DNA from: Alphaproteobacteria bacterium
Lineage (GTDB): Bacteria > Pseudomonadota > Alphaproteobacteria > GCA-2731375
DNA length: 44,581 bases
NCBI GenBank assembly: GCA_030747035.1
Contig: JASLLM010000007.1
Location: 1 to 44,581 of the forward strand
Direction of reading: 5' to 3'
Positions within the stretch are counted from its first letter, which is position 1. The number at the start of each line of letters is the position of its first letter. This document shows, piece by piece, positions 1,641 to 7,517 of this stretch. The translations under genes were made by a program, and so were the position numbers. The notes under the pieces were generated by a model that worked only from the letters and a program-made list of their open reading frames with translations, did no database searches and was not told the origin of the DNA.

Positions 1641-5262
<3,622 letters not shown>

Positions 5263-5263
<1 letters not shown>

Positions 5264-5295
5264 TGTCCTGGTTCAAGAATACGCCGTACTTAGGA
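5263..5295 (+). repeat. Left terminal inverted repeat of the MITE-like element
   Basis: Begins GTGTCCTGGTTCAAGAATAC and pairs with the reverse complement of 5493-5525. The only mismatches are at repeat positions 21 and 24. The internal repeat at 5296 begins with no gap. Confidence 0.85.
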
Positions 5296-5389
5296 CGGCC
5301 ATACAGGCCTCTCGGCTAGGAGCGTGGCCCGCCGTGATGCCAACCATCATAAGGGCCGCGCGACGACATCCGAGAGGCCTGTATGGCCG
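5296..5389. repeat. Internal hairpin 1 of the MITE-like element
   Basis: The arms 5296-5315 (begins CGGCCATACAGG) and 5370-5389 are perfect 20-bp reverse complements around a 54-base loop. The left arm abuts the left terminal repeat. Confidence 0.82.
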
Positions 5390-5398
5390 CCAAAATGG

Positions 5399-5492
5399 TC
5401 GCTTCTCCTGGCCACCGGATGGCGTCGGCGCTCCTTGACGATGGCCGGCATCGCCGGCGGAACGCCTCCTACCCGGAGGCCAGGAGAAGCGA
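5399..5492. repeat. Internal hairpin 2 of the MITE-like element
   Basis: The arms 5399-5413 (TCGCTTCTCCTGGCC) and 5478-5492 are perfect 15-bp reverse complements around a 64-base loop. The right arm abuts the right terminal repeat. Two short segments of this loop (5429-5435 and 5447-5452) complement segments of the other loop (5318-5324 and 5336-5341). Confidence 0.8.
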
Positions 5493-5525
5493 TCCTAAGT
5501 ATGGTGTATTCTTGAACCAGGACAC
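5493..5525 (-). repeat. Right terminal inverted repeat of the MITE-like element
   Basis: Partner of 5263-5295, ending CTTGAACCAGGACAC before TA. The AGGA inside it (5519-5522) lies 9 bases before the GTG start of the next gene, so the element end may supply that gene's ribosome binding site. Confidence 0.85.
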
Positions 5526-5531
5526 TAGATT

Positions 5532-7517
5532 GTGAACAAGACTGCCGCCGCGGGATCTGGGGGCGGGAACAAAAAGAAGACATCAAAATCGTCCGGCCGC
5601 GGCTGGTTCGCAACCCTGCTCTATTGGTTGATCGTCATGGCGGTCTGGGGTCTGATCGCCGTCATGGGCGTGATTGTCTGGTACGCCTATGATCTGCCAT
5701 CGGTGGACAAACTATCGGCGATCCAGCGCAAACCATCCCTGACCCTGCTGGATTACAAAGGCCGGCATATCGCCCGTTTCGGGGATGTCTATGGCGAGCC
5801 GGTGCAGGCCGGCCAATTGCCCCGTCATTTGCCCCAAGCTGTCGTCGCCACGGAGGACCGGCGGTTCTACAGCCACTTCGGCGTCGATCCCATCGGCCTG
5901 ACGCGGGCCATGGTGACCAATCTATTTGCCGGCCGCATCGTTCAGGGCGGCAGCACCATCAGCCAGCAATTGGCCAAGAACGTCTTCTTGACCCATCAGC
6001 GCACCTTGAAGCGCAAGGTGCAGGAATTTCTGCTGGCCCTGTGGCTGGAAGCCAATTTTTCCAAGGACCAGATCCTGACCCTGTATCTGAACCGGGTCTA
6101 TCTGGGCGCCGGCGCCTATGGCGTCGATGCCGCCGCCAGGCGCTATTTCTCCAAGCCGGCGGCGAAGGTCAATCTGGCCGAGGCCGCCATGCTGGCCGGC
6201 CTATTGAAGGCGCCCTCGCGCCTGGCACCGACCCGTAACCTCAAGGCGGCACGGAAACGGGCGGCGGTGGTACTGAACAACATGGTCGCCGCCGGCTACA
6301 TTGACGAGGCGGCGGCCAAGGGCGCCAAGACCAAGCCTGCGGGATTGCGGCGGGGACGGGCGGGCGCAAGTGCGCAAAGCGCACGCTATTTCGCCGATTG
6401 GGTAATGGATCGCCTGCCCGACTACCTCGGCCCGACGGAGCGCAATCTGGTGATCAAGACCACCCTGGACCGGGACATCCAGGCACGGGCCGAGACCGCC
6501 ATGCTGCGTATCGCGGGTGACGCCGCGCGCAAGCGGAAGATCGGCCAGGGCGCCCTGCTGGCCATGGCATCGAATGGCGCGGTGCGGGCCATGGTGGGCG
6601 GCAAGGACTATGGCAAAAGCCAATATAACCGCGCCACCCAGGCCCGGCGGCAGCCTGGTTCCGCTTTCAAACCGGTGGTCTTTCTGGCTGGCCTGGAAGC
6701 GGGTATCCGCCCCGACACGAAGTTCATGGACAAACCCATTACCGTGGATGGCTGGTCGCCGAAGAATTATGCCGGCAAGTACCGGGGCCGGATCAGCTAC
6801 ACAGACGCATTGGCCTATTCCTCCAATTCCGTTGCCGTACAGGTACAGGAAAAAGTCGGCCGGGAAGATGTCGCCGCCACGGCACGGCGCCTGGGCCTTG
6901 GTTCGGCCAACCCCCGCCATCCGTCCATGGCCCTTGGTGCCGGGGAAACCAGCCTGCTGCGGCTGACGGCGGCCTATGCGGCCTTCGCCAATCAGGGCCA
7001 TGCAGTCCTGCCCCATGGCATCCTGGAAGTGCGCGACGGCAAGGGCAATTCGCTTTATCGCCGCAGTGGCTCCGGCGGAGGCGAGGTGGCCCGGCCCTGG
7101 CACATAGCGGAATTGAACCAGATGCTGGCCCGCACCATCCGTGAAGGCACCGGCCGGAACGCCAGGATCGGCCGCCCCGCCGCCGGCAAGACGGGCACCA
7201 GCCAGGATTACCGGGATGCCTGGTTCCTGGGCTACACCTCTCAACTGGTCGCCGGCGTCTGGCTCGGCAATGATGATGGTTCGCCCATGGCCAGGGTCAC
7301 GGGTGGCGGCGCGCCGGCCCGGCTATGGCGGGATTTCATGAAGGCGGCGCACCGGGGACAACCCGCGATGGCGCTGGGCCGTCCGGGCCGCAAGCCGCCG
7401 TCAAGGCCATCCGGCAATCTGCTCGACCGGCTGTGGCGCAGCCTTGGCTCCAGTGGCGATGTCCAGCCCGGCGAGGGCCGGGACCTGAACGACCCGGCAA
7501 ACCGGGAGGGGCAGTGA
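5532..7517 (+). CDS. Class A penicillin-binding protein (PBP1A family)
   Basis: A bifunctional peptidoglycan synthase: an N-terminal GT51 glycosyltransferase polymerises lipid II and a C-terminal transpeptidase cross-links it in the periplasm. It has 661 residues, shorter than the 800 or more of E. coli PBP1A. A short basic cytoplasmic tail is followed by one membrane anchor (about residues 26-52). The GT51 motifs are EDRRFYSHFGVDP (catalytic Glu near 108) and GGSTISQQLAKN. The transpeptidase motifs are SAFK (Ser about 377), SSNS and KTGTS (Lys about 553). The GTG start lies 4 bases past the inverted-repeat element, with AGGA from that element 9 bases upstream. The original promoter and leader were probably displaced by the insertion. 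Confidence 0.92.
   Translation: MNKTAAAGSGGGNKKKTSKSSGRGWFATLLYWLIVMAVWGLIAVMGVIVWYAYDLPSVDKLSAIQRKPSLTLLDYKGRHIARFGDVYGEPVQAGQLPRHLPQAVVATEDRRFYSHFGVDPIGLTRAMVTNLFAGRIVQGGSTISQQLAKNVFLTHQRTLKRKVQEFLLALWLEANFSKDQILTLYLNRVYLGAGAYGVDAAARRYFSKPAAKVNLAEAAMLAGLLKAPSRLAPTRNLKAARKRAAVVLNNMVAAGYIDEAAAKGAKTKPAGLRRGRAGASAQSARYFADWVMDRLPDYLGPTERNLVIKTTLDRDIQARAETAMLRIAGDAARKRKIGQGALLAMASNGAVRAMVGGKDYGKSQYNRATQARRQPGSAFKPVVFLAGLEAGIRPDTKFMDKPITVDGWSPKNYAGKYRGRISYTDALAYSSNSVAVQVQEKVGREDVAATARRLGLGSANPRHPSMALGAGETSLLRLTAAYAAFANQGHAVLPHGILEVRDGKGNSLYRRSGSGGGEVARPWHIAELNQMLARTIREGTGRNARIGRPAAGKTGTSQDYRDAWFLGYTSQLVAGVWLGNDDGSPMARVTGGGAPARLWRDFMKAAHRGQPAMALGRPGRKPPSRPSGNLLDRLWRSLGSSGDVQPGEGRDLNDPANREGQ

Follow-up and report, generated by a model that had tools for sequence, protein, structure and literature searches.

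A 263-bp insert between gyrB and a penicillin-binding protein (PBP) gene belongs to a family of bacterial elements in which, judging from sequence comparison, the constant part is the interior, two arms (T1 and T2) that face inward, and the variable part is the terminal repeat. Comparisons of the ends show that elements with this T1/T2 interior carry IS630-type ends, IS1380-type ends and at least one further end type. We consider it probable that they form a family of non-autonomous DNA transposons (MITEs) with a constant interior and changing ends, which is mobilised in trans and whose arms work independently of the transposase.

A folded element at the gyrB stop codon

The window, the whole stretch of DNA analysed here, comprises 44,581 nucleotides. 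By sequence reading, its MITE-like insert occupies positions 5263-5525, between gyrB (2807-5263, + strand, 818 aa, with DNA_gyraseB and GyrB_insert domains) and a gene assigned by domain match to a transglycosylase/transpeptidase PBP (5532-7517, + strand, 661 aa). The left terminal inverted repeat (TIR; 5263-5295, + strand) is of the A type, GTGTCCTGGTTCA..., which is also found in family copies. It matches the right TIR (5493-5525, − strand) at 31 of 33 positions, both mismatches being G·T on the + strand. Arm T2 has its sense on the + strand (5296-5389) and is closed by a perfect 20-bp stem (5296-5315/5370-5389), while arm T1 has its sense on the − strand (5399-5492) and is closed by a perfect 15-bp stem (5399-5413/5478-5492). 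Both stems touch the TIRs without a gap. Re-reading the sequence confirmed the coordinates and lengths that an initial annotation had given for the TIRs and for these two internal repeats. Between the arms lies a 9-nt spacer (5390-5398), in which CCA and TGG can pair according to alifold.

Each arm contains a 78-nt core. The T2 core (5304-5381, + strand) holds GGAG opposite CGAC, where tandem G·A pairs are possible, and an inner hairpin, and it matches a covariance model of T1 arms (R1) with 57.6 bits (L001 1544-1621). The T1 core (5407-5484, − strand) holds GGGTAGGAG, GGCGATG-n5-CATCGTC, AA and CGACGC and matches the same model with 89.7 bits (E 1.6e-17; G000:C329:5407-5484:-). A single strand of the insert is predicted to fold into a three-way junction. 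Its MFE as single-strand DNA is −112.2 kcal/mol, compared with −47.4 (sd 4.1) in 200 shuffles (z −15.8), none of which equalled it. This supports the three-arm fold of the initial annotation, and the three-way junction is conserved in the family. The entire element is an imperfect palindrome with a minus-strand self-match at 74%, and its outer 19 nt occur within the window only at its two ends (0/100 shuffles). The annotation had also described complementary segments in the loops of the two arms. These are present in the window copy but not conserved: among 52 aligned elements only the window copy keeps the 7-mer, while 23 keep the 6-mer, which is what two homologous arms would give when inverted relative to each other. 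Kissing loops were therefore ruled out as a conserved feature.

Besides the end of gyrB, a single ORF of at least 80 aa overlaps the insert (5613-5347, − strand, 88 aa), starting outside and ending inside it. The insert is short, lacks coding capacity and has terminal inverted repeats, and both dispersed copies and a target-site duplication were found. We classify it as a MITE inserted in CTAG at the gyrB stop codon. The MITE identity first proposed is thus borne out, with 12 of 12 relatives lacking the element at this site and related DNA present in 10 of 60 relatives.

Insertion sites and target duplication

At the orthologous gyrB/PBP junction, the 12 relatives without the element include seven that have CTAG where the window has CTAG-element-CTAG. 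In the window, the left TA (5261-5262) lies inside CTAG 5260-5263 and belongs to TAG (5261-5263), the stop codon of gyrB, which falls within the insertion target and is kept. The right TA (5526-5527) lies inside CTAG 5525-5528. These empty sites are consistent with duplication of TA, or of CTAG, which would result in the identical sequence and is indistinguishable from it; insertion without duplication was not observed. One of the 12 relatives (L178, G001) carries a different palindromic insert at the same junction. In the nearest relatives the PBP start codon is 3 nt past the gyrB stop. In the window (5520-5534) the right TIR (CCAGGACACTAG) puts AGGA about 9 nt upstream of the GTG start of the PBP gene, and the insert may provide this gene with a new ribosome-binding site.

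Elements with another end, the C type, fit a different target. One C-type copy was absent from 11 of 11 relatives, and the 8 nt between the stop codon and the next start in seven of them fit a 3-bp TNA duplication. For this reason, a TA target inside TNATATNA that had been considered for the C type was dropped. TNA was present on both sides of 46 of 61 C copies, and N was equal in 27 of those 46.

Insertion at stop codons was frequent. Among 50 typed elements (24 untyped ones were left out), 23 were located where an ORF of at least 150 codons has its stop codon, compared with 176 of 3193 control sites, which had the same target sequence and lay nearby; as each element has two ends, about 11% would be expected. 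Stop codons fit both the CTAG and the TNA targets and insertion there spares the gene, so that the preference may stem from selection or from the choice of target. The orientation of T1 relative to the flanking genes was unbiased (++ 11, −− 18, convergent 16 and divergent 24 of 69), a count that used crude ORF calls, omitted elements near contig ends and counted five elements inside ORFs apart.

Family architecture

Complete elements begin and end with a terminal repeat of roughly 36 nt and hold T1 followed by an inverted T2, the two 78-nt cores mostly lying 25 nt apart. The 25-nt core spacing was found in 87 of 98 arm pairs. Pairs were composed of one T1 and one T2 arm in 95 of 98 cases in one set and 123 of 124 in another. 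The compact design that had been thought unusual for a non-autonomous element is therefore not peculiar to the window copy, and represents the rule of a class-wide family.

T1 and T2 are homologous but non-identical and lie in opposite orientation; the best T2 arm scored 63.7 bits with the T1 model. Both comprise an outer stem, an internal loop in which AGGAG faces CGAC, a second stem, P2, and the inner hairpin P3. The GGAG/CGAC loop permits tandem G·A pairs, and its two closing G-C pairs were present in 63 and 60 of 66 arms. In P2 the sequence is free to vary while pairing is kept, and in T1 P3 reads GGCGAUG-n5-CAUCGUC, followed by AA. The TIR stem also keeps its complementarity, although the middle of the repeat varies. 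GTAG (GUAGGAG) preceded the hairpin in 26 of 27 T1 arms found by BLAST, but in only 7 of 26 T1 arms found by R1 in distant genomes; these counts exclude matches from a pattern scan, since its pattern required GTAG. In T2, GTAG is variable and often missing.

When 60 arms were placed in a tree, T1 arms separated from T2 arms across end types, with 6 changes compared to 20.4 in shuffled data. This tree is based on few columns and has many open forks, its labels were assigned by bit score for 60 of 67 arms, and several distant rows fell into the other group.

Terminal repeats and transposase families

The A end of the window, GTGTCCTGGTTCA, is identical to the IS630 ends GTGGCCTGAATCA and GTGGCCTGTATCA at 10 of 13 positions. 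Both this identity and the empty site agree with the IS630-type TA insertion suggested in the initial annotation. By contrast, a search of 15 genomes that allowed up to 3 mismatches yielded no pair of A-type ends at IS distance, which leaves an IS630 transposase a candidate for the cognate enzyme. Twenty stretches with A-type ends were read and contained only solo ends and mini-hairpins and no autonomous element, and plasmids searched with the A end gave no match. In the window's own genome, the search for an autonomous partner covered a MAG of 351 contigs that is 84.7% complete. Thus, IS630-family elements with matching ends were found for other members of the family, but none for the exact end of the window copy.

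The element at L206 (G066) has ends, CTAGTGGCCTGTATCACCTAAAT, that agree with IS630-family ends at 16 of 16 nt. The IS630-family elements L209 (G072) and L224 (G064) have CTAGTGGCCTGTATCA with a similar continuation at one end and CTAGTGGCCTGAATCA at the other. The L206 arms reached E-values of 8e-15 and 8e-9. At L206, roughly 120 bp separate the arm element with its IS630-type ends (1110-1379) from a match to an IS630-family (DDE_3) gene (1501-2025). L046, from the genome of L224, has the same end type as L206 and is intermediate to the window's A end (GTGTCCTGTATCA); this genome also has 120 matches to the C-type end. Two elements from the window's genus, L276 and L277, carry CTAGAGCAGTTCCGG at one end, which matches CTAGAGCACTTCCGG of the IS630-family elements L198 and L213 at 14 of 15 positions.

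Other members have the ends of a different transposon family. L278 (G303), L280 (G390), L284, L291 and L297 (G314) end in AGCCCGCATTTCTCAC, exactly as annotated IS1380-family elements do, and their T1 arms scored E-values of 3e-7 to 6e-11. In L278 the identity to the IS1380 end extends over 19 nt, CTAG included. The matched IS1380 elements (L298/L299; PF13701) are located on plasmids of Pseudomonas putida and Stutzerimonas. A search of 13 genomes for IS1380 genes gave matches in nine. In G390 a fragment of an IS1380 gene lies close to an IS1380-type end with one mismatch, the PF13701 match in G303 (19.4 bits) was below the cut-off, and PF13701 had no match in G314, the genome with the largest number of IS1380-like ends (34). 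The commonest end is the C type, TACCAAGG..., which fits a TNA duplication. For the ends GAGCCTGT..., AGAGCCCTTT..., TGTGGTG... and GGGGCCAGG..., no annotated transposase was found among the plasmid matches listed, of which some regions were opened.

The interior is shared between end classes, with identities of 79.7% (L206/L273) and 77.7% (L124 with C-type and L022 with B-type ends). The ends of L206 and L273 have 10 of their first 13 letters in common. The A, B and GTGGCCTG (L206-type) ends may all have diverged from one another within a single IS630 group. If ends and transposases had drifted apart in one lineage, this would account for these three but not for the IS1380 type. The L276/L277 type, the IS1380 type and the C type look distinct from one another, and we count at least three plainly distinct end types rather than the dozen end sequences seen.

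Distribution

BLAST detected related DNA in 10 of 60 relatives, or 11 of 61 genomes including the window's own, some of it as fragments (39 bases in G005). In the window's own genome BLAST found the window copy only; the covariance model added two arms, one within a C-type element (L258) and one running into a contig end (L259). The initial annotation had proposed a search for further copies in the genome and its relatives, and the element did not prove to be a single copy.

The R1 model found arms in at least 29 of 385 alphaproteobacterial genomes and at least 25 of 276 genera (E ≤1e-4), counts that are lower bounds since filters were strict and at most 12 candidates were scored per genome. 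A pattern scan of species genomes found at least 120 stretches, in records titled Proteobacteria or its subgroups, many titles reading merely Proteobacteria. T1 arms also occur in Sinorhizobium and Terrarubrum plasmids. The exact pattern had no match in viral contigs. Rfam 15 gave no match for the window at the gathering score; for five carrier loci at E ≤5 it gave four matches, none on the arms. Copies within a genome are up to 97.6% identical, which suggests fairly recent activity in some hosts.

Covariation and strand polarity of the arms

Arm pairing is kept through compensating changes. In an alignment of 27 T1 arms (A1), 94.0% of the cells were paired and covariation was 0.465, compared with 0.157 in shuffled alignments (reached by 0/500) and with no more than 0.126 after sliding. 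Twelve of the 500 shuffles did as well on one of five measures, pairs changed on both sides, and the seemingly invariant columns of A1 are so partly by construction, because 17 of its 27 rows were found by pattern. In 26 T2 arms (A2), 91.8% of the cells were paired and covariation was 0.466, compared with 0.204 in shuffled alignments (0/500); the outermost P3 pair was unpaired in 24 of the 26 rows. A third alignment, of 67 arms with many end types (A3), had two-sided changes in 28 of 28 pairs, bearing in mind that it was fitted to the model and leans towards it. Together, these alignments show that the arms are conserved as base-paired folds.

We compared G·T with A·C cells on each arm's own strand in 52 of the 72 typed elements, namely those without indels (two more have like types). 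G·T exceeded A·C in T1 (73:17, outer stem and P2, with P3 omitted because the search pattern fixed parts of it) and in T2 (126:22), whereas the terminal stem was balanced (55:53). Counted by column, the ratios were 15:3, 12:5 and 12:12, respectively. Family copies are related, so these cells are not independent events, and 42 of the 52 elements came from the pattern scan, which fixed GTAGGAG and parts of T1 P3. The T2 excess comes mostly from two P2 columns and one outer column with G·T as the commonest pair. In 10 elements found by BLAST the ratios were 7:7 for the T1 outer stem and P2, 11:0 for T1 P3, 25:6 for T2 and 10:6 for the terminal stem. The polarity is therefore clear for the whole family and for T2, but not for T1 in the closest copies of the window element. 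Alifold values for the sense and antisense strands of the arms were −38.4/−18.3 and −28.2/−12.4. With these reservations, the data support a fold preserved on whichever strand leads inward from the end in question, and a terminal stem without strand preference. Such a polarity would be expected of RNA or single-stranded DNA and not of cruciform DNA.

Possible roles of the arms and alternative explanations

Considering the end identities and the duplications, resident DDE transposases would cut and paste the element in trans by way of its ends, and the arms would be compatible with any transposase at hand. The common interior under the ends of unrelated transposons suggests that the job of the arms is independent of any one transposase. 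Arms of this kind would serve the element itself or the host's tolerance of it. Most likely they act in RNA, a role to which we would give slightly less than an even chance. It is favoured because each side of the element offers a sense arm first to incoming transcription. Read-through from either flank would then yield a correctly folded arm first, and this folded RNA might be bound by a host factor or control how the mRNA is processed or terminated. In this way, insertions at the ends of genes, frequently right at stop codons, might do no harm. Of the 69 placements, however, 24 are divergent, which argues against read-through being required. Almost as likely as the RNA role is that the arms are recognised as single-stranded DNA when the element is replicated. 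More tentatively, and with perhaps one chance in three, the paired arms could themselves be the replicating unit, a transposase-independent selfish cassette that works as structured RNA or single-stranded DNA and has repeatedly swapped ends to make use of unrelated transposases (IS630, IS1380 and TNA-type) across Alphaproteobacteria, in other words a mobile hyperparasite.

If the arms instead served as a DNA device for pairing the ends, with cruciform extrusion joining the TIRs for any DDE transposase, the conserved three-way junction and the preserved complementarity of the TIR stem around its variable middle would be readily understood. This reading gains, and the main one loses slightly, because T1 polarity is missing in the 10 BLAST-found copies. 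Extrusion, however, folds both strands, so no G·T excess would be expected where the 52 elements gave 73:17 and 126:22. It also leaves the conserved loops unexplained, and we regard it as unlikely. Much less credible is an ordinary IS630-derived MITE whose palindromes are neutral leftovers or were perfected by replication slippage. MITEs often fold, and the TIRs and the CTAG/TA target are IS630-like. Against this, the interior occurs under several end types, its unpaired motifs are conserved, and its covariation score was reached by 0/500 shuffles. Slippage repair, moreover, would produce perfect palindromes and would not account for the G·T pairs and internal loops that are conserved. The neutral reading is largely contradicted.

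A REPIN-like nature, in which the arms would be two REP-like hairpins that carry GTAG tags, are joined head to head and are bound as single-stranded DNA by a RAYT (Y1) transposase, seems just as improbable. An inverted pair with GTAG outside does correspond to a head-to-head dimer, REP dimers in long palindromes are known (PMC3733652), and GTAG precedes the hairpin in nearly all BLAST-found T1 arms. This reading is weakened by the failure of distant arms to keep GTAG and its frequent loss from T2, and the insertion has TIRs and a target duplication. PF01797 was missing from 9 of 22 genomes searched, including the carriers G061-G065, G067 and G071, and no arm lay within 12 RAYT loci; RAYT was rejected as the mobiliser on these grounds. 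Least probable of all, in our estimation, is that the arms are double-stranded subterminal binding sites of a transposase. Each end does combine a TIR and an arm in the same relative orientation, and the element as a whole is an imperfect palindrome. The same arms occur with both IS630-type and IS1380-type ends, however, and pairing is kept through two-sided changes that double-stranded sites do not need. We thus prefer transposase-independent arms in a trans-mobilised MITE.

Relation to known repeats

MITEs are usually grouped according to their terminal repeats and regarded as derived by deletion from a single parent IS. Here the interior is common and the ends change, which reverses the question of what defines a MITE and makes the selected part testable. 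Like RUP, NEMIS/Correia, Nezha and ERIC, bacterial MITEs described in PMC3733652 as short and non-coding with TIRs recognised by mobilising transposases, the arm family is short, non-coding and bounded by TIRs. Unlike them, it has a defined two-arm interior with conserved loops under different end types and target duplications. The end sequences and the CTAG target resemble those of IS630 and IS1380, but the arm elements have no transposase gene and their interior is unrelated.

The arms share opposed hairpins, G·T pairs in stems and, in the window's relatives, GTAG before the T1 hairpin with REP/REPIN sequences of the GTAG superfamily. In contrast to these, the arms are 78-94 nt long with an outer stem of 15-20 bp, are framed by TIRs with target duplication, have lost GTAG in most distant copies and show no association with a RAYT gene. 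REP dimers inside longer palindromes are described for A. variabilis and H. neapolitanus (PMC3733652). The likeness of the arm pair to such head-to-head dimers is descriptive; a link to RAYT, which defines REPINs, was not borne out in the 22 genomes and 12 RAYT loci examined. The same paper describes the CGTC REPs of Alphaproteobacteria as palindromic head-to-head dimers, with 8-9-bp stems and a tail resembling CCA, for which no dedicated transposase is known. Our arms are also palindromic and head-to-head, but appear longer and otherwise folded, a distinction drawn from that description. MITEs as such are well established, and REP dimers within palindromes have been described (PMC3733652); the new part would be the two-arm interior with interchangeable ends. 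In the literature covered, which holds few subscription papers, we found no account of a conserved two-arm interior shared by elements with the ends of unrelated transposase families.

The covarying fold offers a handle, in terms of strand and nucleotides, on the persistence of palindromic repeats at bacterial gene ends. Cultured Sinorhizobium strains carry at least remnant copies, which makes tests possible. In the copies of S. fredii NGR234 and S. americanum CCGM7, T1 is clear but no right end was recognised, so they may have decayed. In the pattern scan, arm repeats were located at many contig ends, and they therefore bear on the assembly of marine alphaproteobacterial genomes.

Derivatives and nested elements

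Derivatives with one arm or none also exist. Mini-hairpins of two A-type TIRs, lacking both arms, were found at L152 (497-552), L158 (1095-1139) and L160 (2629-2684), and solo A-type ends at many loci. One solo A-type end lies about 140 bp past the 3' end of a Y1 gene on G000:C48. This gene (L171 3017-3900) is the sole Y1/RAYT-like gene found in the window's genome and lies among TTTCGGTGACAGTTTAC-like repeats that are unrelated to the arms. At L260 (G360:C8), two adjacent arms have the same orientation, an exception to the inverted T1/T2 arrangement. On a Nitratireductor thuwali plasmid (L303 2001-2178), the hypothetical protein WP_338531987.1 is annotated within a short one-hairpin element with C-type ends and is probably not a gene. 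Finally, the arms of L049, L072, L081 and L132 contain a nested GC-rich palindrome (ggggcgccccccg...) in their stems, apparently a second small mobile palindrome.
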